A DNA stretch of 49,823 nucleotides from Magnetococcales bacterium (GTDB lineage: Bacteria > Pseudomonadota > Magnetococcia > Magnetococcales > JADFZT01), in assembly GCA_015232395.1 (NCBI GenBank), contig JADFZT010000032.1:1-49823 (forward strand), given 5' to 3'. Below, in pieces: positions 6,918 to 33,424 of this stretch (position 1 is the stretch's first letter; every line of letters starts with the position of its first letter). Both the position numbers and the translations under genes were made by a program. Under the pieces are notes generated by a model, which worked only from the letters and a program-made list of their open reading frames with translations, was not told the origin of the DNA and did not search any database.

Positions 6918-8405
6918 ATGGCGCAAGCCGAAAAGCCGCGTATTTTGATTGTCGATGACATGGTCATCAACATCAAAGTGCTGTCGGACCATTTGAAACC
7001 CCACTATCAGGTTCAGGTAGCCACCAACGGCCCCAAAGCCCTGGAGATTGCGGCGGAGGAGCCCCGGCCCGACATGATCCTCCTGGATATCATGATGCCT
7101 CAGATGGATGGCTATACTGTTTTGACCCGTTTGCAGGCCGATCCCGGTACTCGAGACATTCCAGTGATTTTTTTGACCGCCAAGGATGCCGAGGAGGATG
7201 AAACCCGGGGGTTGGCCATGGGGGCGGTGGATTATATCACCAAGCCCTTCTCTCCCCCCATCGTCAAAGCCCGAATCAAAACCCACCTCTCTTTGCAGCA
7301 GAGCATCCGGGAGATGATGCGGGCCCAGCTGAAAGCCCAATCCCTGCAAAAGCAGGTGGGGGCGCTCAACAGCAACCTGGTGAAGGAAGCGCTGAAAAAC
7401 CCGGAGGCTTTTGCTGAAATCGTCACCATCAGTCCCCAGATGCGGACCATTTTTCACTACATGGAGGCGATTTGCGATTCCGGGGAGCCGGTGTTGGTGA
7501 CGGGGGAGACCGGAGCAGGCAAGGAGTTGATCGCCCGGGGGTTGCACCGTCTGGGAGGAAGAGCTGGCAAGCTGGTCTCGGTGAATCTGGCTGGCCTTGA
7601 TGACGAAACCTTTTCCGATACCCTGTTCGGCCACACCAAGGGGGCCTTTACCGGGGCCAATCAGGATCGCAAGGGGTTTATCAGCCAGGCCGAGGGGGGA
7701 ACGCTTTTTCTGGATGAAATCGGCGATCTGCTACCCGCCTCCCAAATCAAGCTGTTGCGACTTTTGCAGGAAAAACTCTACTACCCGTTGGGGGCGGATA
7801 CCCCCAGCCGAATGGACGTGCAGATCATTGCCGCCACCCACCGGGATCTTCAGGCCCGGATGAATGAAGGCCATTTTCGTCAGGATCTCTTTTTTCGACT
7901 TTCAGCGCATCATATTCGCATACCGGCTCTGCGGGATCGTCGGGAGGATATTCCACCTCTCACCTTTCATTTTTTGGAGGAGGCGGGCAAAGCCATGGAT
8001 CGTCCCCCTCTGGACCCCCCACCGGAGCTGCTCCAGCTGTTGGAGACCTACCATTTTCCCGGCAATGTGCGGGAGTTGCGCGCCATCGTTTTTGATGCCG
8101 TGGCCCAGCATCGAACGGGGGCGATCCTCTCCATGAAAAGCATCCAAAAAACCATCGAGGAGCGCCGCTCTGGTCACCATGGCGCCACTCGGTCGATCTT
8201 GAGCAGCACGCCCGATCACTCCTCTTTCCAGATTGAAGGCTCTCTACCCACCCTGGAGGAGGCTGAAAATGTGTTGGTGAGCGAAGCGATGCGCCAAGCC
8301 AAAAACAATCAGGGGATTGCCGCCTCCCTCCTGGGGATCTCCCGTTCCGCTTTGAACCGCCGTTTGAATCGTCGTCTGAGGCATCTGCTCGATACCCAAG
8401 AGTGA
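6918..8405 (+). CDS. NtrC-family sigma54-dependent response regulator
   Basis: The protein has 495 residues: receiver (7-120, phospho-Asp57 in ILLDIMMPQMDG), AAA+ domain (about 170-395) and a C-terminal Fis-type helix-turn-helix (IAASLLGISRSALNRRL). Walker A is GETGAGKE at 196-203. The sigma54-contact loop GAFTGA at 242-247 is intact, as are FLDEIGDL (Walker B) and the FPGNVRELR block. It should activate RNA polymerase-sigma54 when phosphorylated. AGGGGAAAG lies before the ATG. It closes the signalling block and directly precedes the surface-protein cluster, so that cluster is a plausible target. The upstream hybrid kinase with its HPt domain is the likely phosphodonor. Confidence 0.93.
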   Translation: MAQAEKPRILIVDDMVINIKVLSDHLKPHYQVQVATNGPKALEIAAEEPRPDMILLDIMMPQMDGYTVLTRLQADPGTRDIPVIFLTAKDAEEDETRGLAMGAVDYITKPFSPPIVKARIKTHLSLQQSIREMMRAQLKAQSLQKQVGALNSNLVKEALKNPEAFAEIVTISPQMRTIFHYMEAICDSGEPVLVTGETGAGKELIARGLHRLGGRAGKLVSVNLAGLDDETFSDTLFGHTKGAFTGANQDRKGFISQAEGGTLFLDEIGDLLPASQIKLLRLLQEKLYYPLGADTPSRMDVQIIAATHRDLQARMNEGHFRQDLFFRLSAHHIRIPALRDRREDIPPLTFHFLEEAGKAMDRPPLDPPPELLQLLETYHFPGNVRELRAIVFDAVAQHRTGAILSMKSIQKTIEERRSGHHGATRSILSSTPDHSSFQIEGSLPTLEEAENVLVSEAMRQAKNNQGIAASLLGISRSALNRRLNRRLRHLLDTQE

Positions 8406-9124: not shown

Positions 9125-12100
9125 ATGAATCAAGTTGGCAGGAAGAGTAGCAAAGGTTGGATCCCGAAGGGCGTTTTGGGGCTGTTGGCGGGCTTTTCCC
9201 TGATCGCCAGCGCCCAGGCCGAAACCTTCGACGATGTGTCGAGTGATCGCTGGGGGTATGAATATATTGAAACCCTGGCTGAAAATGCCATCACCAGCGG
9301 CTGTGACAGCTCCAACTATTGCCCGGACAGTGATCTGCAACGGGCGGAGATGGCGATTTTTCTGCTGCGGGCGCAATATGGCTCGGACTATTCTCCTGAT
9401 ACTGCCACCGGCAGTGAATTTGACGATGTCTCTTCAAGTTTTTGGGCGGCCAGCTATGTGGAGCGGCTGGCGGAACTGGGTATCACCGCTGGTTGTGACG
9501 ACAGCAACTTTTGCCCCAGCCGGGACATCACCCGCTCGGAGATGGCGATCTTTCTGCTGCGCACCAAATATGGCTCGGATTATTCCCCCCCCACAGCCAC
9601 CGGGACTGTTTTTGGGGATATCTCTTCGGACTATTGGGCGGCTTCATTTATCGAGCAGCTGGAGACCGAAGGGTGGGCGGACGACACCCTGGATACCACC
9701 CGGGAGTGCGACGACGGTGATTTTTGCCCCAGCCTCACCATCAACCGCGCTGAAATGGCGGTTTTTTTGGTTCGGGTCTTTGAGCTGACCGGCAGCAGTG
9801 ATACCGGCTCCGGCTCCGATGTTGAATTCAGCGCCTCCCCCACTTCCGCCGCCATGGCTGCGGATGGCACCTCCCAGCAGGCGTTTGTCCTCTCCGGTGG
9901 TGACGAGGACCGCACCTACACCTTCACAGTTGCCAATTCCGGCGGTGGTTTTGCTTCCACCGACAACAGCACCGACACCATCACCTATACCGCCGGTTCC
10001 AGCAGCCAGACCAGCGACATTCTCACCGTCACCTGGATCGATGATCAGAATGCCACCGGCACCGTTTCCATTCCCATCTATCTGGGTGAGGAGGCGGGAG
10101 CGGGCAGTGGCAACTCCGTGATCTATGTCGATGACTCCGCCACCGGCAACAACAGCGGTGTCGCCTGGGCCCACGCTTTTACCGACCTCTCCGATGCCTT
10201 GGACAGCGCCTCATCCGGTGATCAAATCTGGGTGGCAGCGGGTACTTATACCCCGTCCAGCATTCCTTCCACCGTTCCGGATGAGGGGACGGGCAGTCGT
10301 TACTACGCCTTTGAGATGAAGGAGGGGGTTTCCATTTATGGTGGTTTTGCTGGCAGCGAAATTTCCCGGGAGGCCCGGGATTGGGAGGCCAATGAGACCA
10401 TTTTGAGTGGGGATCTGGGTACCCTGGATGACACCAGCGACAATGCCCATCATGTGGTTTACGGTGCCACGGATGCCCTGCTTGATGGCTTCATCATTGA
10501 GGATGGCTACGCGATCCTGGAGGATGGCGAAGTGAGTGTGGGCGGCCCGGAAGAGATTTTCGGGCTCAGTTCCGATGAGTATACCCTGCTGCGCATCCTG
10601 AATGGGGTCTGGAGCGTCGCCGGTGGCGGCATGCTCAACATCCAGGTGGATCCCACGGTCCGCAACGCCACCTTCCGCAACAACACCGCTCAGAAGGGCG
10701 GGGCAGCCTACAACATGGTGCGGGATGTCTATCCCGACACACCTGGTGATGACCTTCAAGCACCGCGTTTTGAAAACGTCCTCTGGGAGGATAACTATGG
10801 CACAACCCGGGGTGGCGCCATCAACAACGACTTCAACACCGACAGCGTTCATGTCAACAACATTTTCCGTGGCAACGAATGTCCGGCCAAGGGTGGGGCG
10901 ATCTACTCGGATGCAGGCAACCAACCCGAGATCGTCAACTCCCTCTTCTACGACAACGACTCTGAGCGGGGGGGCGGGATTGTCAACGACGGCACCACCT
11001 CCAGCAAGATGATCTACGTCACCATCGCCGAAAACAATTCCGACGATATCGGTGCCGCTCTCTATCAGGGAACCTATTCCGCCGGGGGATCCACCAACGA
11101 TCCCCAAGCGGTGGAGAGCTTGATTCTCGGCAACACCACCGGCTCCTCGCCATCCTCCATCAGCAACTGGCACGATGATGCGGTGATCAACACCGACTCC
11201 ATCATCGAAGAGACCGATGGCACCTACACCCTGACCGAGGTGTTTAACGATCCGGACAACGACGATTATGAGCCCATCGGCGACTATGCCGACAAGGGAT
11301 GGAGCTTTACCCGGGTGGTGGATGGGGCTTTCGATACGCTGGATAACTTGACCAGCCGCGAATCCTCTGTCGATGCCGGTAACGATGCTTTTGACTCCTT
11401 ATATCCCACCTTTGCGCCGGAGGCTGGGCCGAATGATTCAGCGGTGCTCCATGTAGACGCGGGTGTCTCTGCCAGTGGCGATGGCTCCAGTTGGGATTCT
11501 GCCTACCAGGGGCTGGATGAAGCGTTGGAAAATGCCCGGGAAGGTCAGGAGATCTGGGTGGCTGAGGGAACCTATAAACCCACCAGCGACAGCGACCGTT
11601 CCGCCGCATTTGTGATGTTGGAGGATATCAACGTCTATGGTGGTTTCTGCGGCACCGAGAGCAGCACCGATGAGCGGGGCGACAGCTGTCCGTCCGTGCT
11701 CTCCGGTGATATCGGCACCGAGGATGACAGCAGCGACAACTCCTACCATGTGGTGGTGGCTGCTCCTTCGGGTACATTGGATGGTTTCACCATTGAGGAG
11801 GGTAAAGCTGACGGTGACTATTGGCACGCCAGAGGGGCCGGGATGTTGGTCTATTTTGGCAGCTCGCCCACCTTGAACGACATCACCTTCCAGAACAACG
11901 AAGCCATCGAAGGGGCCGGGCTCGCCGCTTATGACGATGCCATGCCGACTTTGACCGACGTTGTTTTTATCGACAACACCGCTGAACGGGCGGGTGGGGC
12001 GCTCCTTCGGGATGGTTCAAATGCGACGCTTACCAACGTTACCTTCACCGATAACACCGCCACCGACCGGGGTGGGGCGCTCTATATCGACTATGGCGCA

Positions 12101-12535
12101 AGTCCCACGGTGACCTCCTCCACCTTCACCGGCAATGTCAGTACGGGCAATGGCGGCGCAGTCTATATCGACGACAACGCCTCCCAGGTGGGGAGCACTT
12201 CCCCTTCCTTTGATAGTTGCACCTTCAGCAACAACGTCACCTCCATCCGGGGCGGAGCCATGGCGGTTTATAACGAAGTGACCGAAGTGACCCTTGTCGA
12301 CTCCACCTTCACCGGCAACCAAGCGGTCTCCGGCGGTGGCGCGATCTCCATGGACTATTCCGCGACGCTCTACTACGAAAACAACACCTTCACCTCCAAC
12401 ACCTCTACGACAGGTGAGGCGGATGTGGATGTGAGTGATGATTCCACCTACGCCGAATCCGGTTCTGAAGGGACCGGTGATGGGCCTCCGGATGGCGAAG
12501 GGCCTCCGGATGGTGAGCCGCCCACCAAATCATAA
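9125..12535 (+). CDS. Exported SLH plus tandem Pmp-like beta-helix surface protein
   Basis: The protein has 1136 residues. A signal peptide ends near ASAQA/ET (residue 32). Three S-layer-homology repeats follow (about 33-215), each with a Cys pair (TSGCDSSNYCP, TAGCDDSNFCP, RECDDGDFCP). Next come a beta-rich, Ig-like linker (225-325) and two parallel beta-helix modules starting near 331 (VIYVDDSATG) and 773 (VLHVDAGVSA). The helix modules contain recurring short motifs of the polymorphic outer-membrane protein type (TFRNNTA, GGAIY, FTDNTATDRGGAL). The C-terminal tail is acidic and Gly/Pro rich. The ATG at 9125 has GGGGAGG just upstream; an open extension back to 8990 lacks such a signal and would bury the signal peptide. 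It is probably surface-anchored and adhesive or structural. No catalytic residues are recognised. The closest relatives are the genes that follow. Confidence 0.85.
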   Translation: MNQVGRKSSKGWIPKGVLGLLAGFSLIASAQAETFDDVSSDRWGYEYIETLAENAITSGCDSSNYCPDSDLQRAEMAIFLLRAQYGSDYSPDTATGSEFDDVSSSFWAASYVERLAELGITAGCDDSNFCPSRDITRSEMAIFLLRTKYGSDYSPPTATGTVFGDISSDYWAASFIEQLETEGWADDTLDTTRECDDGDFCPSLTINRAEMAVFLVRVFELTGSSDTGSGSDVEFSASPTSAAMAADGTSQQAFVLSGGDEDRTYTFTVANSGGGFASTDNSTDTITYTAGSSSQTSDILTVTWIDDQNATGTVSIPIYLGEEAGAGSGNSVIYVDDSATGNNSGVAWAHAFTDLSDALDSASSGDQIWVAAGTYTPSSIPSTVPDEGTGSRYYAFEMKEGVSIYGGFAGSEISREARDWEANETILSGDLGTLDDTSDNAHHVVYGATDALLDGFIIEDGYAILEDGEVSVGGPEEIFGLSSDEYTLLRILNGVWSVAGGGMLNIQVDPTVRNATFRNNTAQKGGAAYNMVRDVYPDTPGDDLQAPRFENVLWEDNYGTTRGGAINNDFNTDSVHVNNIFRGNECPAKGGAIYSDAGNQPEIVNSLFYDNDSERGGGIVNDGTTSSKMIYVTIAENNSDDIGAALYQGTYSAGGSTNDPQAVESLILGNTTGSSPSSISNWHDDAVINTDSIIEETDGTYTLTEVFNDPDNDDYEPIGDYADKGWSFTRVVDGAFDTLDNLTSRESSVDAGNDAFDSLYPTFAPEAGPNDSAVLHVDAGVSASGDGSSWDSAYQGLDEALENAREGQEIWVAEGTYKPTSDSDRSAAFVMLEDINVYGGFCGTESSTDERGDSCPSVLSGDIGTEDDSSDNSYHVVVAAPSGTLDGFTIEEGKADGDYWHARGAGMLVYFGSSPTLNDITFQNNEAIEGAGLAAYDDAMPTLTDVVFIDNTAERAGGALLRDGSNATLTNVTFTDNTATDRGGALYIDYGASPTVTSSTFTGNVSTGNGGAVYIDDNASQVGSTSPSFDSCTFSNNVTSIRGGAMAVYNEVTEVTLVDSTFTGNQAVSGGGAISMDYSATLYYENNTFTSNTSTTGEADVDVSDDSTYAESGSEGTGDGPPDGEGPPDGEPPTKS

Positions 12536-12544
12536 ACCCCTCCT

Positions 12545-12587
12545 GGTTGGCTGCGTTGGTTGGATCGGCGCAGCCAGCCAGTTTTTT
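12545..12587 (+). terminator. Rho-independent terminator after the first SLH/beta-helix gene
   Basis: GGTTGGCTGCG (12545-12555) pairs with CGCAGCCAGCC (12569-12579), with 10 of 11 canonical pairs and one G-U. AG and six T follow. It sits just after the stop at 12535, so the next gene probably has its own promoter. Confidence 0.8.
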
Positions 12588-12738
12588 CCCTTGATCGTGA
12601 GTTCCTGGTCATACCGGCCTTTCTGCTAAGCTGAAGAGTATGATCAAAGGCTTTTCAACGATCATCTTGCACACCTGAAATTTTAATTCACTTCAAAATC
12701 AAGGTTTTCCAGAAAAATTGGGTATAGGAGACATGGCG

Positions 12739-14508
12739 ATGAAGATCAGGATCAACAACACCTTTACAGCGTTTCTTCTGGCGGGTGCACTGGTCAGCCT
12801 GGCCAGCGCCAGTGAAACCCACGCGGCACAATATGTCGCTGTCGATACCGGCCAAACCGACTGCTACAGCATGCAGGGGGAAGTGATCACCTGTCGTGCT
12901 GAAGGTGAAATGCTTTATGGTCAAGATGCCCAATACGATACCAATGCCCCCAGCTTTACGCTGACGGATGATGAACTCGTCACCGACAACAATACCGGGC
13001 TCATGTGGCAGAAGGCCCACAACGAAACCAGACTCAACTATGACGCTGCTACCACCGCCTGTAGCGAGTTGGTGTTGGGGGGCTACAGCGATTGGCGGCT
13101 GCCCAACATCAAGGAGTTGATGACCATCGTCGATTTTTCCGGTACGGTTTCTGATAATGATGCGACTGAGCCGGATGATCCCTATGTTTTTGAGGACTAT
13201 TTCGACATCGGTTATGACGAAACCCTGGCGCTGGATGGTACCCACGTCACCCAGATGATGGGGCAAACCTGGTCTTCTACAGCCAGGCCGGACCTCTCCA
13301 CCTATAACTATTTTTACAATTTTCTGGATGGCCACCTGAAGAGCGACTCCAATTCCGATGAACTCGCCACCATGTTCTACCGCTGCGTGCGGGGGGATGA
13401 GATCGGCACGACTGGAGATTATACCGATAACGGCGACGCCACCATCACCGACAACAACACCGGAATGATGTGGCAGGAGTCCAATGGTGAGGAGTCGGAT
13501 GGGGATTATCAGTTTACCTGGGCCAATGCCCTGGATTATTGCGAGAATCTGGAGCTGGCCGGGCACACCGATTGGCGACTGCCCAACGTCAAAACCCTGC
13601 ACACCATCGTCGATTATACCAACGCTGATGAAGCCATCGACACCGACACTTTTATCCATAATGTGGATACCCAGAACACCGGTCCCTTTTTCTGGTCCAG
13701 CACCAACGATGAATATTTTGTCGACTATGCCAACTATATCTGCTTCGGGCCGTGTTGGAACTACACCTTTACCATGGATGTCCACGGTCCCGGGGCGCAA
13801 CGTTCCGAATATCGGCGGGATAACGGCAATCTGCCTGAATCCATGGGCGATCAGGAAGATTTGATCCAGGCCGACAACTATGTCCGCTGTGTCCGGGACG
13901 CCTCAGGGGATGATGCTGGCACCAGCAGTGGGGAAGAGACCTTCGCCGACGTATCAAGTGATCGTTGGGGGTATGAATATATCGAGATACTCGCCGCCAA
14001 CAGCATCACCAGCGGTTGTGACGCGGAAAACTATTGCCCGGAGAATGAACTCCAACGCTCGGAAATGGCTATTTTCCTGCTGCGCTCCAAAAATGGCTCC
14101 AGCTATGTGCCGTCATCGGCTACGGGGACGGTGTTTGACGATGTCTCCGCTGATTATTGGGCTGGAAATTTTGTCGAGGATCTGGCCGATCAGGGGATCA
14201 CCAGCGGCTGTGACGACAGCAACTTTTGTCCAAGCCGGGAGATCACCCGCTCGGAAATGGCGATCTTTCTTCTCCGGACCAAATATGGCTCCGACTATAC
14301 ACCCTCCACGGCGACAGGGACGGTTTATGGCGATATCTCCTCCGACTATTGGGCGGCTTCGTTCATCGAGCAGCTCTATAATGAAGGTTTCGCCACCGAC
14401 ACGCTGGATACCACCCGGGAGTGCGACGAAGGCAACTTTTGCCCCAGCCTCGCCATCAACCGGGCGGAGATGGCCGTCTTTTTGGTAAAGACCTTCGGGC
14501 TTGAATAA
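12739..14508 (+). CDS. Exported protein with two DUF1566 (Lcl C-terminal) domains and C-terminal SLH repeats
   Basis: The protein has 590 residues and a signal peptide (FLLAGALVSLASASETHAA). Two DUF1566-type domains follow, recognised by the paired signatures VTDNNTGLMWQK...GYSDWRLPNIKEL and ITDNNTGMMWQE...GHTDWRLPNVKTL. Three SLH repeats with Cys pairs (about 400-588) close the protein. They match the SLH block of the neighbours, but at the opposite end of the polypeptide. DUF1566 occurs in secreted, often adhesin-associated proteins; its activity is not established. AGGAG at 12726-12730 lies 8 bases before the ATG at 12739. An ATG at 12733 is too close, so 12739 is preferred. The domain swap suggests that the SLH cassette is a mobile surface-anchoring module within this cluster. 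Confidence 0.85.
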   Translation: MKIRINNTFTAFLLAGALVSLASASETHAAQYVAVDTGQTDCYSMQGEVITCRAEGEMLYGQDAQYDTNAPSFTLTDDELVTDNNTGLMWQKAHNETRLNYDAATTACSELVLGGYSDWRLPNIKELMTIVDFSGTVSDNDATEPDDPYVFEDYFDIGYDETLALDGTHVTQMMGQTWSSTARPDLSTYNYFYNFLDGHLKSDSNSDELATMFYRCVRGDEIGTTGDYTDNGDATITDNNTGMMWQESNGEESDGDYQFTWANALDYCENLELAGHTDWRLPNVKTLHTIVDYTNADEAIDTDTFIHNVDTQNTGPFFWSSTNDEYFVDYANYICFGPCWNYTFTMDVHGPGAQRSEYRRDNGNLPESMGDQEDLIQADNYVRCVRDASGDDAGTSSGEETFADVSSDRWGYEYIEILAANSITSGCDAENYCPENELQRSEMAIFLLRSKNGSSYVPSSATGTVFDDVSADYWAGNFVEDLADQGITSGCDDSNFCPSREITRSEMAIFLLRTKYGSDYTPSTATGTVYGDISSDYWAASFIEQLYNEGFATDTLDTTRECDEGNFCPSLAINRAEMAVFLVKTFGLE

Positions 14509-14640
14509 AGGGATTTTAGGGGAAAGAGGGGCTGGGGCAGCCATGACAAAACCGTTTGGTCGAAATGAGATGGATCGTCATTCAAATTTACTTCTTATGA
14601 TCTGGATGTCAGAGATCAAAATAAGAAAAGGGGAAATATC

Positions 14641-16452
14641 ATGAATCGAAAGAGTCATCGGCGCCTCACCGGGGGGATTGCCAAGGGTATTTTAGGGTTG
14701 GCCGCTGGTTTTTCCTTGATGGCCAGCGCCCAGGCGCAAACTTTCACGGATGTCGCCACCGACCGCTGGGGCTATGAATATATCGAGGTTTTGGCTGAAG
14801 CCGCGGTGACCAGCGGTTGCGGTACGGATCTTTATTGTCCGGACAGCGATCTGCAACGGGCGGAGATGGCGATCTTTCTTCTGCGCTCCCTCTATGGTTC
14901 CGACCACGCCCCGGATACCGCCTCCGGTACTGAATTTGACGATGTGTCCAGCAGCTTTTGGGCAGCCAGCTTTGTGGAGGAGTTGAGCGAACTGGGGATT
15001 ACCAGCGGTTGCGACGCCAGCAACTTTTGCCCCAGCCGGGATATCACCCGCTCGGAGATGGCGATCTTTCTGTTGCGCACCAAATATGGCTCGGACTATT
15101 CCCCTCCCAGCGCAACTGGAACGGTGTTTGGCGATATCTCCTCCGACTATTGGGCGGGGGCTTTTATCGAACAGCTGGATACCGAAGGGTGGGCGGATGA
15201 CACTCTGGACACCACCCGGGAGTGTGACGACGGCAATTTTTGTCCCAGCCTGTCGGTCAACCGGGCGGAGATGGCGGTTTTTCTGGTGCGGGTCTTTGAG
15301 TTGGGAGAGGTCTCCGGCGATACCAGCGGCTCTTCCGATCCTCTGGCTGACGGCATCATCGCCGTGGATGAAGATGCTTCGGGATCTGGTGACGGCTCTT
15401 CCTGGGCCGACGCTTACACCTCTCTCTCTGATGCCATCGATGCTGCCAGCAGCGGGGATGAAATCTGGATTGCAGATGGCACCTACTATCCCACCGATGG
15501 CAGCGACCGCAGCGTTTCGTTCAACATGAAGGAGGGGGTCGATATCTACGGGGGGTTCGACGGGGCCGAGTCGAGTCGGGATGAGCAGGACGCTGCCACC
15601 AACATCACCATCCTGAGTGGGGATATCGGTACTTCGGGGGATAGCAGCGACAACAGCTATCACGTGCTGGTGGCTGCGGATGATGCGATCCTGGATGGCG
15701 TTACCGTCTCCGGTGGCAACGCCGATGCTTCGGTCACCGAAGGGGATAGCGACACCAACAGCTGGGAGCCCCTCAACGGCATGGGCGGCGGGATGTACAT
15801 GGAGGATTCCATCTCACCCACCCTGAACAACGTCATCTTCACCGACAATACCGCTCTCGAAGGGGGCGCGATCTACGCCTATGACTATGCCCAGCCCCTG
15901 ATCAGCAACTGCACCTTCAGCGACAACACCGCCGAGCGGGGTGGGGCGATCTTAAGCCGCAAGGGCTCCAATATTTATGTGGAGAACTCGGCCTTCAGTG
16001 GCAACGCCGCTGAATATCGCGGCGGGGCGATCCACCTGGACTACGGTACTGCCACCGATGAGGATGACTATTATCAGTGGGATCTCACCATCACCGGCTC
16101 CAGCTTTAGCGGCAACACCACCAACGGCAACGGCGGGGCGATCTATGCGGACAACACCTCCACCCAGCTGAATGAAACCATGGTCAACATTTCCAGTTCG
16201 ACCTTCACCAGCAACACCGCACAATATTTGGGTGGGGCCATTTCCATCTTCAACAGTGCCCGGATCTCCGCCTCTGACAATACCTTCACCACCAATACGG
16301 CGGAACTGGGGGGTGGGGCGGTTTCTCTGGATTACAATGTGACCAATGCCACTCTGAGCAGCAACACCTACACGAGCAACACCGCCACTTCGGGAGAGGG
16401 CAGCATCGATACCCGCAACGACTCCTCTTATTCCGGGAGCGATGGGATTTGA
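14641..16452 (+). CDS. Exported SLH plus Pmp-like beta-helix surface protein
   Basis: The protein has 603 residues: signal peptide (ILGLAAGFSLMASAQA/QT), three Cys-paired SLH repeats (about 36-220), then a single beta-helix module from about residue 238. The module keeps the marker strings GDEIWIADGTYYP, EGVDIYGGFDGAESS and ILSGDIGTSGDSSDNSYHVL, followed by repeating FTDNTA/GGAIY turns. The SLH part is close to that of the gene at 9125 in both protein and DNA, for example the shared segment encoding EMAIFLLRTKYGSDYSPP. That points to recent duplication or gene conversion. AAAAGGGG precedes the ATG. It is likely exported and surface-anchored. I see no enzymatic motif. Confidence 0.86.
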   Translation: MNRKSHRRLTGGIAKGILGLAAGFSLMASAQAQTFTDVATDRWGYEYIEVLAEAAVTSGCGTDLYCPDSDLQRAEMAIFLLRSLYGSDHAPDTASGTEFDDVSSSFWAASFVEELSELGITSGCDASNFCPSRDITRSEMAIFLLRTKYGSDYSPPSATGTVFGDISSDYWAGAFIEQLDTEGWADDTLDTTRECDDGNFCPSLSVNRAEMAVFLVRVFELGEVSGDTSGSSDPLADGIIAVDEDASGSGDGSSWADAYTSLSDAIDAASSGDEIWIADGTYYPTDGSDRSVSFNMKEGVDIYGGFDGAESSRDEQDAATNITILSGDIGTSGDSSDNSYHVLVAADDAILDGVTVSGGNADASVTEGDSDTNSWEPLNGMGGGMYMEDSISPTLNNVIFTDNTALEGGAIYAYDYAQPLISNCTFSDNTAERGGAILSRKGSNIYVENSAFSGNAAEYRGGAIHLDYGTATDEDDYYQWDLTITGSSFSGNTTNGNGGAIYADNTSTQLNETMVNISSSTFTSNTAQYLGGAISIFNSARISASDNTFTTNTAELGGGAVSLDYNVTNATLSSNTYTSNTATSGEGSIDTRNDSSYSGSDGI

Positions 16453-16570
16453 GGCGATCCAGCTAACGGCAAGGGGGGGCGCAATCAGGTTTTACCCCTC
16501 TTTGGCAATCCAAGGATCGAACCCGGCATTGGCCCTGTACGACAAGATCTATTCAGAGGAGATAGCTCCG

Positions 16571-17911
16571 ATGATCAAGGCAAAATCAAACCACCTTGGG
16601 TGGTTTAAATGTAGTGTGTGGTTGGGGGTGGCGCTTTTTTCCGGCGCAGCCCAGGCCAGCGTGATTTATGTGGATACGGATAACAACTCCGGCACCGAGA
16701 CCGGCACCTCCTGGTCCACCGCCTATACCGAGCTTTCCACGGCTCTCGCCAGCGCTGTCAATGGCGATGAGATTTGGGTGGCCCAGGGAACCTACTATCC
16801 TTCCCAGGATGACGACCGTTCCGATACCTTCCAGATGATCGAGGGGGTCGATATTTATGGCGGCTTCCAGGGCAGCGAAGCGTCGGTGGATGAGCGGGAT
16901 TGGGAAACCTACGAGACCATTCTTTCCGGTGCGATTGGGGAAAGCCGTCAGGCTGACAACTCCTATCACATCTTGAAAGGCGCCAACGACGCCACCATCG
17001 ATGGCTTTTTCGTCGAGTATGCCAACGCCCGGGGCGAGAGTTCTTCCAAAACCACCACCAGCACCACCCAGGCGACCACCGCCAGCACCGTGCTTGAAAG
17101 CGAGGGGCTGACCTATGGCGGGGGCATGCTCAACTTTCAGACTGCGCCCACCGTTAAAAACATGGTGTTCCGCTACAACTGGTCCATGAAGGGGGGGGCT
17201 GTCTATAACATGGCGGCGACCTCCATCCAGTCGGGGGACTATACCGCTCCCAGTTTTTATAACGTCACTTTCCAGGAAAACTATGCCGTCAGCCGGGGGG
17301 GAGGGGTGGCCAACGATCTCTACACCCACCCCTATATGGAGCGGGTCACCTTTATCGACAACTATACCGACGCCAAGGGCGGGGGCATGTATAACGACTG
17401 GGCCTGCTCTCCCACCCTGGTCAACTGCCTCTTTTCCGGTAACGATGCTTTTCGAGCCGGAGCCATGGGCAATGATGGCACCTCGTCACCGGTGATGATC
17501 AACTGCACCATCGCCGACAATACCGCCTATGAGATGGGAGCCGGGCTCTACCAGGGCTCCTTCAACCAGAACGTCAACGCGCCGGTCCTCATCAACTCCA
17601 TTATCTGGAACAACACCCTGGATATCGCCGGTTACGGCAACATCAGCAACTGGCACACCAATGAACCCTTGCTGGTCAACTCCATCGTTGAAAATGGCTA
17701 TTGGGGCGTGGATATGGTGGCCAGTGATGATTCCGGATTCAGCGACTCGGACAACGACGACTATTCCCTGTCGAGCGCCACCTCTCCGGCAGTGGATGGG
17801 GGGGTCTCCAGCTACACCTATGATGGCACCACCTATACCGCCCCCACCGAAGACAGGGATGGCAATCCCCGGGACAGTGTCATTGATATTGGCGCTTACG
17901 AATATCAATAG
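16571..17911 (+). CDS. Exported Pmp-like beta-helix protein without SLH
   Basis: The protein has 446 residues with a signal peptide (CSVWLGVALFSGAAQA/S). The helix module starts directly after cleavage (VIYVDTDNNSG) and keeps GDEIWVAQGTYYP, EGVDIYGGFQGSEAS and ETILSGAIG. It ends RDSVIDIGAYEYQ, the usual end of the right-handed beta-helix, choice-of-anchor type family. Unlike its neighbours it has no SLH block, so it is released or held by another partner. The ATG at 16571 with AGAGGAG upstream is preferred over an in-frame extension to 16442 that overlaps the previous gene and lacks signal-peptide character. It lies 20 bases before the next gene and probably shares its transcript. Confidence 0.83.
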   Translation: MIKAKSNHLGWFKCSVWLGVALFSGAAQASVIYVDTDNNSGTETGTSWSTAYTELSTALASAVNGDEIWVAQGTYYPSQDDDRSDTFQMIEGVDIYGGFQGSEASVDERDWETYETILSGAIGESRQADNSYHILKGANDATIDGFFVEYANARGESSSKTTTSTTQATTASTVLESEGLTYGGGMLNFQTAPTVKNMVFRYNWSMKGGAVYNMAATSIQSGDYTAPSFYNVTFQENYAVSRGGGVANDLYTHPYMERVTFIDNYTDAKGGGMYNDWACSPTLVNCLFSGNDAFRAGAMGNDGTSSPVMINCTIADNTAYEMGAGLYQGSFNQNVNAPVLINSIIWNNTLDIAGYGNISNWHTNEPLLVNSIVENGYWGVDMVASDDSGFSDSDNDDYSLSSATSPAVDGGVSSYTYDGTTYTAPTEDRDGNPRDSVIDIGAYEYQ

Positions 17912-17931
17912 GATCTTTCGGGAGAAACAAC

Positions 17932-20751
17932 GTGAAAAAATCAAATAATCTCCGGAAGCCTGGTCAGCCGCCGACCCAACTGGCGCGGGTGGCCACACCT
18001 GATGCAGACGGGATGGGTCTGTTCTGGGGAGCCTCCCTGGCCGCATTGGCCATGGCACTCACCCTGGGTACTAGCGGCACCGCCTGGGGGGAAAACACCG
18101 TCGGGGTGATCACCGATACCGGTTCTGCATCGGAAGGGGTGACCCTCATTGCCCCCATGGCTTCCGGTTCCACTTTCCTGATCGATAGCGCAGGCCAGGT
18201 GGTCAACTCCTGGACCAGCGACTACACCCCGGCTTTTTCCGCCTATATTCTGCCGGATGGGGATCTGCTGCGTACCGGTGAATGGGATGGGGGAACCACC
18301 GATATCAGCGCCAACGGTGCAGGGGGGATCATCGAGCGGATGGACTGGGATGGCGACGTGGTTTGGAGCTATACCCTGGCAGGCACCCTGAATGGGGCTG
18401 AATACCGTCCTCACCATGACATTGAATATATCGACTGCAATGGCTGCGAGAGTGACGGCAACGTGCTGCTCATCGCCTGGGAAAAAAAGAGCAGCGACGA
18501 AGCTGAGACCGCCGGACGCAATCCCAACCGGATGAGTGATACCGAAATCTGGTCGGAAGCGGTGCTTGAGATCGATCCGGATACCGACACGGTGGTGTGG
18601 GAGTGGCACGCCTGGGATCACCTGGTGCAGCAGTACAGCTCCAGCCAGGACAACTATGTCACCTCCACTTCCGACTATCCCCACAAGATCAATATCAACT
18701 TTGTCGGCAACTCCAACACCTACACCGGCGACGACTGGCTCCACTTTAACGCCATCGACTATAACGCCGACCTGGATCAGATCATTCTTTCCAGCCGCAA
18801 CTTCAGCGAAGTGTGGATCATCGACCACTCCACCACCACCGCCCAGGCGGCTACGGGCAGTGGCGGAAATTCAGGCGCGGGTGGGGATCTCCTCTACCGC
18901 TGGGGCAATCCCAAGGCTTACGGTCAGGGGACCGACGACGATCGGGTTCTCTACGGCCAGCATGATTCCCAGTGGATTGGCTCCGGGCTCTCCGGGGAAG
19001 GGGATATCATCATGTACAATAACGGCGAGGGCCGGGATGGGGACTATAGCGACATCATACAGGTCACCACCCCCTGGAACGACGCCACCGGGGAATACAC
19101 CCTCTCAAACGGTGCCTGGGAAGAGAATTCCACCATCAGCTGGAGCTACAACAGCGATGCGTCGGACGCTGACTTTTTTTCCGATTCCATCTCCGGAACC
19201 CAGCGTCTTGAGAACGGCAACACCCTGATCTGCGAGGGAGAGGATGGCCATATTTTTGAAGTGGATTCAAGCGGCAACACCGTCTGGTCCTATATCAATC
19301 CGGTATCCAACTCCGGCATTGCCGCTCAGGGTGAGACTGCAAGTGTCAACATTGTCTTTCGCGCCACCCGATACAGCTCTGATTATGAAGGCTTTGACGG
19401 CCGTGTGCTGACCGGGGACACCACCATCGAGGGTGGTCAGCCCGATAGCGGCGATATCGTCTATGTGGATGCCGACGCCAGTGGCAGCAACAACGGCAAC
19501 AGCTGGACCAACGCCTACAGCAGTTTGGGGCTGGCCCTCAATAACGTGACCAGCGGTGATGAGATCTGGGTCGCAGAGGGAACCTACTATCCCGCACCAA
19601 ACGGCTCCCGGACCCGTTCCTTCACGATGGTGGAGGGGGTTGGGGTTTATGGTGGTTTCGATGGTCGGGAGAGCAGCCGGGCGGAACAAAAATGGACCGC
19701 CAACGAGACCATCCTTTCCGGGGATGTGGATTTTGACGGCGTGCTCAACTCCGGCAACAGCTATCACGTGGTCAAGGGAGCCAATAACGCGATCCTGAGG
19801 GGCTTTTTTGTGGAGCAGGGATACGCTTCGGGTGAAACCGCCAGCGGCTCGTGTAGCTCCGATGGCTCCATCACCGACATTCTCTGTCAGGAAGGGGTGA
19901 ATCGTGGCGGCGGCCTGCTCAACTTCCAGGTGGCACCCACCATCAACAAGGTCAACTTCCGCAATAACTACGCTGAAGTGGGCGGCGGGGTTTATAACAT
20001 GGTGGCGACTTCCACCGGGGATGCCCCGGAAGGGGGGTATGACGCTCCCAGCTTTACCGATGTCACCTTCGAAGAGAATGAATCCCGGGGCGAGGGCGGG
20101 GCTGTGGTGAATGAGGTCCATACCCATTCCACTTTCACCAACGCCACATTCAGCAATAATACCGCTGCCAGCAAGGGGGGGGCGATCTTCAACGATTGGT
20201 CCAGCTCACCAGTTCTCACCAACTGTCTCATGAGCGGCAACCAAGCAGACCTGCGGGGGGGAGCCATGGCCAATGAGAGCGCTTCTCACCCGGTGCTGAC
20301 CAACTGCACTATCATCGCCAACAACGCCTATGACGCAGGCGGCGGAATCTACCAGGGAGGCTACACCGACACTCCCAACCAGCCGATCCTGATCAACACC
20401 ATCCTCTGGAACAACACCACGAGCCTGAATGGGGATGCCAACCAGTCCAACTGGCACGCCAGTGAGCCGTTGCTGGTCAACTCCATCGTTGGGGGGGGGG
20501 CGTTCGGGGTGGATATGGTCACCACCAGCGATATCCAGTTTGTCAGCACCACGGAGGGGAGTGAGGATTATTCTCCGGACAGCGGCTCTCTGGCTATCGA
20601 TGCGGGTGTGGAGAGCTATACCGCCTATAGTGTTGAGGATCCTCTGGACGATACCGTGCAGGTCACCTACAGCGCCCCGGAGGGGGATGTGGATGGCAAC
20701 AGCCGGGATGATGGCGCGGTGGATATCGGTGCGTACGAGTTTCAGGAGTGA
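17932..20751 (+). CDS. Arylsulfotransferase-like propeller fused to a Pmp-like beta-helix
   Basis: The protein has 939 residues and an N-terminal export segment (ASLAALAMALTLGTSGTAWG). The first half (about 50-480) resembles the aryl-sulfate sulfotransferase beta-propeller. It contains GQVVNSWTSDYTP, the His motifs RPHHDIEYI, WLHFNAIDYNADLDQIILSS and YGQHDSQWI, and RLENGNTLICEGEDGHIFEVD. From about 508 (IVYVDADASGS) it carries the same beta-helix module as its neighbours, ending VDIGAYEFQ. ASST enzymes move sulfate between phenolic esters in the periplasm. Here the enzyme-like head is joined to a surface-type repeat. The start is GTG at 17932 with GGGAG upstream. A 10-G run at 20491-20500 lies inside the coding region. 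Whether the head is catalytic cannot be settled by reading alone. Confidence 0.82.
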   Translation: MKKSNNLRKPGQPPTQLARVATPDADGMGLFWGASLAALAMALTLGTSGTAWGENTVGVITDTGSASEGVTLIAPMASGSTFLIDSAGQVVNSWTSDYTPAFSAYILPDGDLLRTGEWDGGTTDISANGAGGIIERMDWDGDVVWSYTLAGTLNGAEYRPHHDIEYIDCNGCESDGNVLLIAWEKKSSDEAETAGRNPNRMSDTEIWSEAVLEIDPDTDTVVWEWHAWDHLVQQYSSSQDNYVTSTSDYPHKININFVGNSNTYTGDDWLHFNAIDYNADLDQIILSSRNFSEVWIIDHSTTTAQAATGSGGNSGAGGDLLYRWGNPKAYGQGTDDDRVLYGQHDSQWIGSGLSGEGDIIMYNNGEGRDGDYSDIIQVTTPWNDATGEYTLSNGAWEENSTISWSYNSDASDADFFSDSISGTQRLENGNTLICEGEDGHIFEVDSSGNTVWSYINPVSNSGIAAQGETASVNIVFRATRYSSDYEGFDGRVLTGDTTIEGGQPDSGDIVYVDADASGSNNGNSWTNAYSSLGLALNNVTSGDEIWVAEGTYYPAPNGSRTRSFTMVEGVGVYGGFDGRESSRAEQKWTANETILSGDVDFDGVLNSGNSYHVVKGANNAILRGFFVEQGYASGETASGSCSSDGSITDILCQEGVNRGGGLLNFQVAPTINKVNFRNNYAEVGGGVYNMVATSTGDAPEGGYDAPSFTDVTFEENESRGEGGAVVNEVHTHSTFTNATFSNNTAASKGGAIFNDWSSSPVLTNCLMSGNQADLRGGAMANESASHPVLTNCTIIANNAYDAGGGIYQGGYTDTPNQPILINTILWNNTTSLNGDANQSNWHASEPLLVNSIVGGGAFGVDMVTTSDIQFVSTTEGSEDYSPDSGSLAIDAGVESYTAYSVEDPLDDTVQVTYSAPEGDVDGNSRDDGAVDIGAYEFQE
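20491..20500. repeat. Ten-G homopolymer inside the sulfotransferase/beta-helix gene
   Basis: Ten consecutive G encode the Gly-Gly-Gly stretch of IVGGGAF about 84 residues before the end of the protein. The homologous position in the gene at 16571 has no such run (IVENGYW). Gain or loss of one G would truncate or alter the C-terminus. Runs of 8-9 G occur elsewhere in the window, so the tract is only modestly exceptional. Confidence 0.6.
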
Positions 20752-20884: not shown

Positions 20885-21766
20885 TTATGATTGATCGAGC
20901 ATGATCTCCTCGTAGCGAAACCGACTCCACATCGCCCCATAGCCCACAGCGGTTTTGGCACCAATGCCCAGGAGATCCAGGCCGCTTTCCAAAAGTTCTT
21001 CCACCCGCTCCAGCCGCGCTTCATCCCCATCCCGACAGGCAAATCGAAACACAAATTCGCTCTTTTCCGCTACAGCGAGGAAAAAGATCGGGACCGGATT
21101 TTCATTTTCCAGGGGGTTGGGGAGAGCGTGTTTTTGATCACCCTCACTCTGGCCATAATAGTCGGGATGGTGGCAGTTCATCACCTCCACCCGTAGCCCA
21201 GGCCAGCGGGCGGGAAAGGCGTCGTAAAATATCAGCGCGCCACGACCCGTGGTAGATTCATCGGCTTTGACGGTTTCAGGGCCGAAGAGCTGTTCGATCT
21301 CCCCGGGATCCACCCCCTCCAATTTAGCCGCCTGGCGACAAACTCCCTTGATCGCGGATCCGGTGAGGTAGGGCACACCCATAACGGCATCAAAGGAAAA
21401 ACCATTTTCTGTGGGGTGGGCAGCCCCCAATCCGCTCACCAGCCGCCACTGAACCACAAAGCTGGCAAGCTTGAGTCCCAACGGTTGGGTCAAGCGATCC
21501 CAGCGTTGGTGATAGTGACTCAATAGATCCTGATGGCGCTTATCTTTTTGGCGTTTGTTGAAGGCATCGGCAAACTCTTTCAGGCGGGGTTGCAGCTCCT
21601 CGACCCGTTTGGGCTTGGGTTGGGGAGGGTGGCCCCACGCCTCCCCTTCCCAGATGGGCAGGTAGCGGTCAAACACCAGCCCGGCGTGGGCCAGAGTGGG
21701 CAGGGGATGTTTAAAGAGGGGGGTGACCTGGGAGAGGCTGGGGGAAAAAACAAGTCCGTCACCCAT
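20885..21766 (-). CDS. cmr6: Type III-B CRISPR RAMP protein Cmr6
   Basis: The protein has 293 residues, with the Cmr6/RAMP signature TENGFSFDAVMGVPYLTGSA and IKGVCRQAA, FGPET, TGRGALIFYDAFPARW and a Gly-rich C-terminus (LLGIGAKTAVGYGAM). Cmr6 caps the Cmr effector filament near Cmr1. The ATG at 21766 overlaps the cmr5 stop by 8 bases (ATGGGTGA), so translation is probably coupled. It is the last gene of the cmr1-6 series and is followed by the hairpin at 20814-20848. Confidence 0.93.
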   Translation of the reverse strand: MGDGLVFSPSLSQVTPLFKHPLPTLAHAGLVFDRYLPIWEGEAWGHPPQPKPKRVEELQPRLKEFADAFNKRQKDKRHQDLLSHYHQRWDRLTQPLGLKLASFVVQWRLVSGLGAAHPTENGFSFDAVMGVPYLTGSAIKGVCRQAAKLEGVDPGEIEQLFGPETVKADESTTGRGALIFYDAFPARWPGLRVEVMNCHHPDYYGQSEGDQKHALPNPLENENPVPIFFLAVAEKSEFVFRFACRDGDEARLERVEELLESGLDLLGIGAKTAVGYGAMWSRFRYEEIMLDQS

Positions 21767-22202
21767 GGTCTTTTTCCTGCTTGGGTTCTTCCGGGTTGCT
21801 GTAGAGGGCATCGGCCAAAAGCTTGACCTGGGAGGCCATGGCGATGGCTTCCCGCTGGACCACCAGATAGTCGGGCCGCTTGGCTTGAATGATGGCCTTC
21901 AGGACGGTTAATCCCTCCTCACCGTTTTTAATCTGGGTGACATAGGGTTTGAGTGGCTGCCCCGGCATCTCCTGCAACAGCCAGTTGGAGAAAAAAACCA
22001 GCAGTTTTTTATGGTGTTGCTGGCCCTGGTTGAGAAGGGTCGCCCACTGCACTGAAAGCCCCAGCCTACGCAGATTGACCGGTAGCTCCCGGGAGAGAGA
22101 GAGGGCTTCCTTTTGCCAGGGACGCTTGTTCCAGCTGAGCACTTCATCCAAGGCGGCCCGGGCTCTCAAGCGGATTAGATTGTTTTCTCCATCAGGCATC
22201 AT
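21759..22202 (-). CDS. cmr5: Type III-B CRISPR small subunit Cmr5
   Basis: The protein has 147 residues and is helical and basic, with the Cmr5-like strings LPVNLRRLGLSVQWATLL and PYVTQIKNGEEGL. Cmr5 forms the minor filament of the Cmr complex along the target RNA. The ATG at 22202 overlaps the cmr4 stop as ATGA. A longer reading from 22238 would run back into cmr4 coding sequence and is not needed. Identification rests on length, composition and its fixed place between cmr4 and cmr6. Confidence 0.88.
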   Translation of the reverse strand: MMPDGENNLIRLRARAALDEVLSWNKRPWQKEALSLSRELPVNLRRLGLSVQWATLLNQGQQHHKKLLVFFSNWLLQEMPGQPLKPYVTQIKNGEEGLTVLKAIIQAKRPDYLVVQREAIAMASQVKLLADALYSNPEEPKQEKDHG

Positions 22203-23218
22203 TTGGATATCCCCCATGGATTGCCATGGAGGTTCCAAAAGCAGACCCCTTGCCCCACGGTTTCGTTGCCACCAATCTGGATTACCCGGATGAGATCACT
22301 CTCTTGCCGGAAGAGATCGAGCCCGAGAACCCTTGCCGGAGGGGACTCCCCTTGATTCCCTTCAGCCGATTTTTTTTGATTGGCGCCACACACCTGGCGG
22401 CGCTCACCAATAAAGGAGACAAAAAGCGTCTCAGCAGGCAGATGCTCCTCATACCAGAGATTGCCCGACTCGTCGGTATCACCGGTGACGGGATCTTTAT
22501 AGGGGGTAGTGGTTTTGCCTTGGGTGAGTTTGATGCGGGCTGCCACCGGAACGGCCCGCTGGATCAAATCATGAAAGTCCTGGTCCGGAATCACCACCAG
22601 TCCCTTTTGTAGCCGCTCTTGGGTGGCCTTTTCGCTCCTGGGAAGCAGTGCCGCCAACCCTTGGGCCAGCTGGGTGAGTTCAGGTGAGGTGTTCACTTCT
22701 TCCTTGGCATACACCAGATCCTCCACCACCAGGCTCTCCCCGAGGAGATCCTTATCCGCCACCAGCACTTTATGACTGGAGTGGCTTATGGATGGATGGG
22801 GAAAGGGGAATCCTTTAAAACCGAGAGCCCTCATGTCCCGCTCCAGTCGCTCCAGAATCAGGGGGCAGGTGACGTGGAGAAAGGGGCGGTTGATGGCGCG
22901 GGCGGGATAGGCCACCAGACGCCCTTCGGTGAAAGCCAGTCGCCCGGCCTTCAGCCCCACTTCTGTTTCATCCTTGGATGGGTCCGGGCCGAAGAGTTCG
23001 GTCACCGGCTCCTCTTTGGGGTGGGTGGATTGAACATTTCCCTTCTCCCAGGCCTCCCTGGCGACCCCTTTCAGAGAGGTGGCCGGGAGCACCGGAAAAC
23101 CGCTCCCCGCTTCTCTGGCGATGGGTAGATCGATGGCGCCCGAGGTGGAGCCGGTGCCGCAATGGGTGGGGGTGAGGGTGTAGATGGCCGAGAGGGCCAC
23201 ATCTTGCCAGACAGTCAT
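22199..23218 (-). CDS. cmr4: Type III-B CRISPR backbone RNase Cmr4
   Basis: The 339-residue RAMP protein opens with YTLTPTHCGTGSTSGAIDLP followed by IAREAGSGFPVLPATSLKG. Asp30 in GAID matches the catalytic Asp26 of Pyrococcus furiosus Cmr4, which cuts target RNA at 6-nt intervals, so target cleavage should be intact. Several copies build the major filament around the crRNA. The ATG at 23218 is 8 bases after the cmr3 stop and has GGAAGG upstream. The 3' end overlaps cmr5. Confidence 0.94.
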   Translation of the reverse strand: MTVWQDVALSAIYTLTPTHCGTGSTSGAIDLPIAREAGSGFPVLPATSLKGVAREAWEKGNVQSTHPKEEPVTELFGPDPSKDETEVGLKAGRLAFTEGRLVAYPARAINRPFLHVTCPLILERLERDMRALGFKGFPFPHPSISHSSHKVLVADKDLLGESLVVEDLVYAKEEVNTSPELTQLAQGLAALLPRSEKATQERLQKGLVVIPDQDFHDLIQRAVPVAARIKLTQGKTTTPYKDPVTGDTDESGNLWYEEHLPAETLFVSFIGERRQVCGANQKKSAEGNQGESPPARVLGLDLFRQESDLIRVIQIGGNETVGQGVCFWNLHGNPWGISK

Positions 23219-23225
23219 AATGGCC

Positions 23226-24446
23226 TCATTCCTTCCAAGATGTTGGGCCGATGCCGACCACGGTGTGACCAAATCCAAAAGCCTGCTCTTGGGGGTCGCC
23301 GATCAGGTGGGCGTCGTTGAGCTGCTGCAAAACCTCCCTCCGCTCCCGATCTTCTCCCCCTTCCAGGCGAAAGAGCCAGGCGCTGCCAGCAGGGACAAAC
23401 TGCCGGTTGGCGTGGCTTTGGGCTTTACTCATGTAAAATCCGCCCAACACCTGGAGTTTTCCCAGCATCGCCCCTAAAAAACGAATTCGCACCTGGGGGG
23501 AGAGGGCATCTTCGGTGAGGGGATGATTGAGATCCTGCAACCGCACGGGATTGAGCGTGAGCAGCCAAAAGGTGTGGTTTTTTTCCACCTGCCTGGGCAG
23601 ATGTTGGCCGGAAAAAATCCGCTGCCAGCTGGGATGAAAGGGGGCTGGTTTTTCAAATTGTACCACCCGGTTGCGATTCCCCATCCCCCCCACCCCTTGG
23701 ATCAGGGGGTGGGGTTTGATCCGGTGGTGATCCAACAGGCCGGAAAAGCTCCCCACAAAGCCGCTTTTGGAATCAAACCGCAGGGTGTTCAGGGTGTAGA
23801 GCATGCCAGGAGAAACGGTGCCGGTTTGAGAATCGATTTGGATGCCGGGGCGCACCTCCTCGTGGACAAAAGGGGGTCTTTGGGCACGCTGTTGATCGGG
23901 ATCCCAGCGGTGATTGCCCTTTGGGTCCAAAGCCAAGGCCAGATTGTCAGGACCGATCCAGCCGTGGAGGGGTTTGGCATCCGGTCTGTCGGGTCTTCCC
24001 AGAGAGAGCGGTTTATCTTCCCCCCGATCATCCAGTCCAGGATGGCTGGAGGAGATGATCCGGGCTGGTTCAGGTCTGTTTTCCTGGCTACTTTGCAGCA
24101 TAAACCGGGGAGCGGGCACCCACGGGGCGAGCCATTCCCGGCTTTCTCCGGAAATGTGGACTTTCTGGGCGGGATAGGGGCCTTGCAGCTGCCAGGTCTC
24201 GGGCAATTTTCCGGGAGGGCCGATCAACTTTTCCCGTTCCGCTTTGGCTGTTTTGGACCAATCATCCAGATTGAGCACCGGGTTGGTTACCGAGCGCAGC
24301 AGGTGGCTTCGTACCAGGCCCTGAAAGGTAAAGGGGGTGGGGGGAAATTGGGAGCGGCCACTGTGAGACTCACCCGCACTGAAGGAGCGGGCTTGGCCAA
24401 AATAGAGAGGCTCGATGGGTTGAATGAAAAAAGGATCCCCTTGCAT
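23226..24446 (-). CDS. cmr3: Type III-B CRISPR protein Cmr3
   Basis: The 406-residue protein starts with the Cmr3 motif FFIQPIEPLYFGQARSFSAG followed by PPTPFTFQGLVRSHLL. In the family, Cmr3 pairs with Cas10 (Cmr2) at the foot of the complex and grips the 5' tag of the crRNA. The ATG at 24446 shares one base with the cmr2 stop (TGATG), which fits reinitiation. Late Gly-rich strings (LGGFYMSKAQ, GFGHTVVGIGP) fit RAMP loops. Confidence 0.92.
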   Translation of the reverse strand: MQGDPFFIQPIEPLYFGQARSFSAGESHSGRSQFPPTPFTFQGLVRSHLLRSVTNPVLNLDDWSKTAKAEREKLIGPPGKLPETWQLQGPYPAQKVHISGESREWLAPWVPAPRFMLQSSQENRPEPARIISSSHPGLDDRGEDKPLSLGRPDRPDAKPLHGWIGPDNLALALDPKGNHRWDPDQQRAQRPPFVHEEVRPGIQIDSQTGTVSPGMLYTLNTLRFDSKSGFVGSFSGLLDHHRIKPHPLIQGVGGMGNRNRVVQFEKPAPFHPSWQRIFSGQHLPRQVEKNHTFWLLTLNPVRLQDLNHPLTEDALSPQVRIRFLGAMLGKLQVLGGFYMSKAQSHANRQFVPAGSAWLFRLEGGEDRERREVLQQLNDAHLIGDPQEQAFGFGHTVVGIGPTSWKE

Positions 24447-28938: not shown

Positions 28939-29363
28939 CGGTTTTCACCCGGATGGTTGAGGGGGCTTGGTTGGGCTGTTATTGCTTTTTCAAGGAGGCC
29001 GGAGCTGGCGGCAGGGATGAGGAAGCCAGGAAAAAAGCTTCTCCTCTTCGATTGCAATAAATCAGGGCTGGCAAAATCAGGCATGGAGCGGATCCGATCT
29101 GAAAATGGGCGTGGGTTCCGGCCTGCGGACAAAATAAAATCTTAACTCATTCAGATCCTAGCGCATCCCCCTTTCCAACACAACCAGTTATTTCCCCCAT
29201 CACCACACGTCCCCAGCAACTGTTTTTCCTGGTAGGGGCGGATGATAAATGATAGTTCTTTTTGGCTTTGATGAAAAGAAAATGGGCAAAAGGGTGGTGA
29301 GCGTTTGGGAAGGGGAGAAGATGGACGTTGATTTGACAGGGTGTCGGGGTCGATTCAGCCTGG
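28939..29363. other. Divergent intergenic region between cmr1 and cas6-like gene
   Basis: Promoters for the leftward cmr operon and the rightward cas6-like gene should lie here. I looked for direct repeats with regular spacing and found none, so there is no CRISPR array, not even a short one. No protein-like open frame stands out. Confidence 0.6.
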
Positions 29364-30350: not shown

Positions 30351-30367
30351 TGGGGGGGGTGCTGGAT

Positions 30368-32177: not shown

Positions 32178-32299
32178 CTCCCTTGATCTTGTATCATGGA
32201 TGCTCCATCCACGCCTCTTTTTCACTTTGACGAAAGGGCCTTTTCTTGGCTTGTGAATGCCCCCCCCACGCCGACCTGAAAGTTCAGGAAACCCTGTCC

Positions 32300-33388: not shown

Positions 33389-33424
33389 ACCCGTGGCGTT
33401 TGGTGGTCTGACAAAGGGGGAGAG

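Follow-up and report, generated by a model that had tools for sequence, protein, structure and literature searches.

Cysteine-paired triple SLH cassettes in a genome-wide family of exported proteins of a Magnetococcales bacterium

Five tandem genes of a Magnetococcales bacterium, all encoding exported proteins, make up the densest cluster in a genome-wide family organised around a cysteine-paired triple SLH cassette; they are not a conserved system of their own. The genome (4.94 Mb, 170 contigs) contains at least 24 full copies of this cassette, plus four cut at contig ends. Our main reading, to which we give a probability of about 0.6, is that the cassette anchors the whole exported family on an envelope glycan, probably a pyruvylated one. 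The anchoring role itself is well supported, and the cassette is best read as a generic, non-covalent anchor that was expanded and shuffled in one magnetotactic lineage. SLH anchoring is already known in kind; the host and the scale are unusual.

Modules of the five tandem genes

The window, that is the whole stretch of 49,823 nucleotides that was analysed, carries the five open reading frames in tandem between positions 9125 and 20751 (Table 1). Their likely start codons are ATG for ORF1 to ORF4 and GTG for ORF5; each has a ribosome-binding-like site, and all five products begin with a hydrophobic leader of Sec type. Five right-handed beta-helix modules of Pmp-like type and three triple-SLH blocks were counted in all, besides two DUF1566 (Lcl_C) domains and one arylsulfotransferase (ASST) head. 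A preliminary description of this DNA had listed five consecutive exported proteins with shared modules, namely a triple SLH block at either end of three of them, a beta-helix in four, DUF1566 in one and a sulfotransferase-like head in one. The open frames, the leaders and the Pfam domains confirm this composition, with the refinement that ORF1 has two helices and ORF2 none.

Table 1. Features of the five-gene cluster (positions in the window)
Feature	Position	Strand	Remarks
ORF1	9125-12535	+	1136 aa; signal peptide, triple SLH, beta-helix A, beta-helix B
Cys-paired triple SLH cassette, ORF1	9224-9787	+	
Beta-helix module subtype A, ORF1	10109-11272	+	
Beta-helix module subtype B, ORF1	11429-12403	+	
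Terminator-like hairpin 3' of ORF1	12543-12581	+	18 pairs then T6; consensus match only
ORF2	12733-14508	+	signal peptide, two Lcl_C (DUF1566), C-terminal triple SLH
Lcl_C (DUF1566) domain 1, ORF2	12976-13392	+	
Lcl_C (DUF1566) domain 2, ORF2	13441-13779	+	
Cys-paired triple SLH cassette, C-terminus of ORF2	13939-14502	+	
ORF3	14641-16452	+	signal peptide, triple SLH, beta-helix B
Cys-paired triple SLH cassette, ORF3	14740-15306	+	modelled; query in genome searches
Beta-helix module subtype B, ORF3	15352-16449	+	
ORF4	16571-17911	+	signal peptide, lone beta-helix A, choice-of-anchor Q C-terminus, no SLH
ORF5	17932-20751	+	signal peptide, ASST head, beta-helix A, no SLH
ASST propeller head, ORF5	18160-19251	+	PF05935
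Beta-helix module subtype A, ORF5	19450-20748	+	

The SLH blocks of ORF1, ORF2 and ORF3 score 65.7, 64.3 and 58.1 bits against PF00395 (Pfam cut-off 20.8). The blocks of ORF1 and ORF2 share 85% and 71% protein identity with that of ORF3, and 300-nt SLH stretches of ORF2 and ORF3 are 75-82% identical to ORF1 at the DNA level. The beta-helix modules are 33-50% identical to one another. Judged from these alignments, the likeness among the SLH blocks and among the beta-helix modules cannot be due to chance.

Pmp repeats (PF02415) exceed the cut-off in ORF1, ORF3, ORF4 and ORF5. The modules fall into a subtype A (first module of ORF1, ORF4 and ORF5) and a subtype B (second module of ORF1, and ORF3). 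In a relative of the same order (G002, locus L105), one A gene adjoins one B gene, both devoid of SLH; the A/B split including these genes is supported 100/100, and the G002 branches are long. The simplest history is that an old A-B pair probably came first and that the SLH and ASST parts were added later, the alternative being that the pair is shared with G002 through transfer. The ORF4 model (pLDDT 70, moderate confidence) gave as best PDB matches right-handed beta-helix proteins, with Rhombotarget A and polysaccharide lyases including RbmB, and the model hints that the ORF4 beta-helix may contact polysaccharide. The cluster modules thus have the Pmp repeat motif and the right-handed beta-helix fold in common with chlamydial Pmp, Rhombotarget A and RbmB, but they are joined to SLH or ASST parts and share about 10-13% identity with solved helices. 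A reading as Pmp autotransporters was rejected: the repeats are present, but a C-terminal autotransporter barrel was absent from all five ORFs by domain scan. Elsewhere in the genome, a very long open frame of 3658 codons (G000:C68, L074) weakly matches the cluster's beta-helix module (34%).

The head of ORF5 matches PF05935 with 72.8 bits (cut-off 24.2, E 3e-20). Direct alignment to E. coli AssT places ORF5 H271, N273, R289 and H344 at H356, N358, R374 and H436, and a profile alignment places H162 at H252. These five AssT residues (H252, H356, N358, R374 and H436), which are named in PMC13426309 as belonging to the active site and its transient sulfo-histidine, thus each have an equivalent, including the sulfated H436 of this PAPS-independent enzyme. 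The earlier suggestion that the set has one enzyme-like member is borne out to this extent, and the residues suggest that the head is probably active. It differs from AssT in being fused to a beta-helix and in that no DsbL/DsbI neighbours and no clear counterpart of T501 were seen. The N-terminal part also gave PDB sequence hits to the coat protein of a plant virus, which we put down to chance.

The cassette and its genome-wide family

In 24/24 full cassettes all six cysteines are kept, as are the Gly, Arg and Glu of each of the three repeats; the Trp is likewise invariant save for one W-to-F change, and the third repeat is without the second Gly of the GxxxG motif. We infer from the sequences that one CX5C-type cysteine pair per repeat forms a disulfide. 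Modelling, which the preliminary description had suggested as a check, gave an AlphaFold2 structure of the ORF3 cassette with a pLDDT of 88.9, and the top 15 PDB matches in Foldseek are all SLH domains of Sap or SpaA (E 3e-8 to 8e-5), several of them solved with a pyruvylated glycan. In such domains the sugar is bound by the Trp and Gly, and the pyruvate ketal by the Arg of the TRAE motif (PMC10628300).

The cassette thus shares with the SLH domains of B. anthracis Sap and P. alvei SpaA a like three-repeat fold (Foldseek E 3e-8 and 4e-6, TM about 0.7-0.8) and the W/G/R-x-E ligand residues and, as with Gram-positive S-layer proteins, one anchor type serves a suite of proteins (PMC6801904). It differs in its diderm host, the cysteine pair in every repeat, an identity of 21-23% and the lack of a CsaB passing the cut-off.

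The genome encodes two proteins of the pyruvyltransferase superfamily PF04230. One of the genes starts 24 bp after a gene for an SLH-cytochrome-FG-GAP protein and is followed by a glycosyltransferase gene. Both proteins fall far below the cut-off of the CsaB profile TIGR03609 (66.5 and 63.2 vs 213.1 bits). These are superfamily-level matches only, hence we do not claim a true SLH-type pyruvyltransferase as a CsaB partner, and a pyruvylated glycan is accordingly named here as the putative ligand, by analogy with the solved SLH domains.

With the ORF3 cassette as a query, the host genome gave 30 matches and the 60 related genomes searched gave none; PF00395 has 46 matches in the host genome. We extracted 27 ORFs with a whole or partial cassette, and a further fragment sits at the end of a contig. 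Since pieces at contig ends may join up, the gene number is about 25-28. The cassette is found on more than 20 contigs besides that of the window, and the full copies are 56-85% identical to the ORF3 cassette. According to Pfam, its partner heads include cytochrome c, FGE-like, Lcl_C, RCC1, M12B and thermolysin-like protease, peptidase C13, PEBP, lipase-like, Ig/cadherin and FG-GAP domains. The preliminary idea of an interchangeable anchoring cassette therefore extends far beyond the window, to at least 24 full copies on many unrelated heads with the binding residues and the SLH fold kept.

Among these full copies, the cassette is N-terminal in 13, in the middle in 6 and C-terminal in 5. On a tree of the cassettes this position changes 7 times, the least possible being 2, and 200 shuffles never gave so low a number, indicating both inheritance and reshuffling of position; most inner branches are weakly supported and few strongly.

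A Sec-like leader is present wherever the 5' end of a family ORF is intact. None of the SLH family ORFs was found to end in a clear hydrophobic anchor, and neither a lipobox nor an outer-membrane barrel was noticed among the 26 family ORFs scanned with Pfam, so that the SLH part would be the sole visible means of retention. The absence of a barrel domain from these 26 ORFs also led us to reject an OmpM-type tether. The family is like OmpM/SlpA of diderm Terrabacteria in having SLH in a diderm cell with presumed binding of a cell-wall polymer, but neither a coiled coil nor an outer-membrane barrel was seen in any member, and it carries the triple SLH in one chain. OmpM is reported to be absent from Gracilicutes (PMC10628300).

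Several family loci show further features. At four of them (L064:85-2238, L070:3910-5406, L069:5211-6617 and L065:363-3239), an RCC1-SLH-Lcl_C gene is accompanied by a same-strand gene for a pectate-lyase-type beta-helix protein. These beta-helix proteins start without an obvious signal peptide and are 31-52% identical to one another; one of them matches a tail spike in PHROG (E 6e-12), and its N-terminus is tailspike-like. Four SLH proteins carry c-type cytochrome domains (L050:6846-8453, L051:7153-8670, L066:7357-8763 and L068:8412-11834), and their haem motifs are mostly CX4CH, for instance CSTGSCH, as against CX2CH.

Anchoring, location and other readings

In the mechanism that we propose, Sec would export the family proteins and the cassette would fold in an oxidising compartment, with its cysteines paired within each repeat. 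Its Trp, Gly and Arg-x-Glu residues would bind an acidic, probably pyruvylated envelope glycan non-covalently, and any fused domain would so be retained on the cell envelope. The cargo in the cluster would consist of glycan-binding-type beta-helices, C-type-lectin-like Lcl_C domains and the ASST head, for which transfer of sulfuryl groups from one phenolic compound to another is expected. In the rest of the genome the cargo would comprise cytochromes and proteases as well as FGE-like, RCC1 and Ig domains. Beta-helix contacts may hold ORF4 and ORF5, which have no SLH.

The side of the outer membrane on which the cassette would act is a matter of comparison with other bacteria. In diderms, SLH domains usually bind the cell wall and face the periplasm (PMC10628300, PMC9388160), and surface exposure can therefore not be taken for granted. 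It is quite possible, although we do not favour it, that the family consists of soluble periplasmic proteins which the cassette pins to peptidoglycan or a peptidoglycan-linked polymer in the manner of OmpM/SlpA, with nothing displayed on the surface. The orientation of the characterised diderm SLH proteins, the lack of any noticed barrel or lipobox, and the periplasmic location of studied ASSTs and many c-type cytochromes all speak for such an arrangement. However, the M12B and thermolysin-like protease, cadherin/Ig, RCC1 and FG-GAP heads are typical of extracellular proteins, the proteins reach 1678 aa, and the genome contains a type II secretin, which would allow export across the outer membrane. 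Surface display of the SLH-borne heads is a fair hypothesis. A more far-reaching version, in which a Gram-positive-like display platform was built independently and a disulfide-stapled cassette would attach about 25 different proteins (enzymes, cytochromes, adhesins) to a pyruvylated polymer beyond the outer membrane, is more tentative and we consider it rather doubtful.

The preliminary description had taken the five genes for a surface-layer, matrix or adhesion system. We consider a dedicated and co-regulated system of this sort unlikely, although the tandem layout, the modules in common and the likeness of the beta-helix fold to matrix-polysaccharide lyases such as RbmB are in its favour. 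Upstream of the cluster lie genes for a histidine kinase, a GGDEF-EAL regulator and, directly upstream (6918-8405), a sigma-54 response regulator, which could be taken as a sign of common control. However, sigma-54 promoter matches in the window number 58 for 81 expected, so that a site before ORF1 is no more than chance, and the strong, terminator-like hairpin after ORF1 splits the set and suggests that ORF1 may be transcribed apart from ORF2-5 and thus perhaps lies outside one operon with them. Absence of the gene order from all relatives had been named in that description as a refutation, and this is largely what was found: the A-B helix pair does occur in G002, but the five-gene order is present in 0/47 other genomes of the order, none of them from the same family. 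Together with the spread of the cassette over the other contigs, this argues against the dedicated system and for the genome-wide family. Sigma-54 activators accompany SLH genes at three loci in all (the window, L052:2241-3689 and L051:8937-10394): they lie directly upstream at two of these and convergent at the other.

Distinctly less probable still is that the cassette is a recombination-prone repeat, spread by duplication and gene conversion, and that its many heads are a neutral by-product with little shared function. Window copies that are as much as 82% identical as DNA, the existence of close whole-protein relatives (L069/L070 and L057/L060) and the restriction to one lineage would fit such a process, but the six cysteines and the binding residues are invariant although the copies have diverged as far as they have, and the reading frames and leaders are intact. 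A further reading, which we rejected as very remote, is that SLH displays Lcl_C and FGE-like heads which a diversity-generating retroelement makes hypervariable. Both heads do sit on SLH proteins here, and the variable proteins of such retroelements often have a DUF1566 or FGE fold, but the only two reverse transcriptases found are of group II intron type and group-II-like with a Cas2-like N-terminus, and a DGR-type enzyme was found nowhere in the genome as assembled.

The latter reverse transcriptase (L076:673-1620, contig C20; Cas2-like N-terminus YLVGYDISSPRRLRKIHRSLKKRG) is, from its sequence, a possible Cas2-RT fusion, and the genome also carries a type III-B CRISPR set. That set lies 3' of the cluster on the opposite strand (window 20885-30350, Cmr genes on the - strand, Cas6 on the + strand); a CRISPR array was looked for in 28900-33500 and none was found.

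Distribution of the cassette

The magnetochrome domain PF18509 is present in 48/48 genomes of the order, host included, and in 0/14 controls, indicating that the order is almost certainly magnetotactic. The triple SLH block occurs in 0/47 other genomes of the order, the host being the sole genome of its family compared. A single SLH repeat is found in six other genomes of the order, where it belongs to another protein, about 410 aa long and without cysteine pairs. This protein is encoded by a single-copy gene (L079-L084, L110), is also seen in one more distant genome (G048), and mostly has a lipoprotein-like leader; several of the genes have a common neighbour of about 305 aa.

Of 398 genomes drawn evenly from the phylum, for which a limited number of candidates per genome was scored, 10 have any SLH match and none but the host exceeds two. 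A profile of the cassette found one other genome in the phylum sample (G342), with an ordinary cysteine-free SLH protein. SLH proteins of a Sedimenticola MAG (L009) have the same GC....FCP....TR.QMAVFL repeat, 47% identical in the best segment, but as one repeat, always C-terminal, in proteins of 277-313 aa, without triple cassette or varied heads. The cysteine-paired repeat type is therefore not unique; by the sequences compared, the triple cassette and its expansion are unique within what was searched. No sign of horizontal import of the cluster was seen: its GC equals that of the flanks, and no triple cassette of this type occurs in the phylum sample, plasmids or viral contigs. For Magnetococcales, or magnetotactic bacteria in general, the literature searched contained nothing relevant on S-layers or SLH domains.

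SLH anchoring is a special feature of Terrabacteria, and one Pseudomonadota-like lineage with 46 SLH matches stands out against the 388 of 398 phylum genomes with none. If the cassette binds an envelope polymer, the family would provide a direct test of how many proteins can be displayed through one non-covalent tag in a diderm, and a disulfide-stapled SLH tag could serve protein display. The surface of magnetotactic cocci, about which little is known, would be opened to experiment. If the display-platform reading were true, the envelope of this bacterium would be an exchangeable work surface, including for electron transfer and sulfation.
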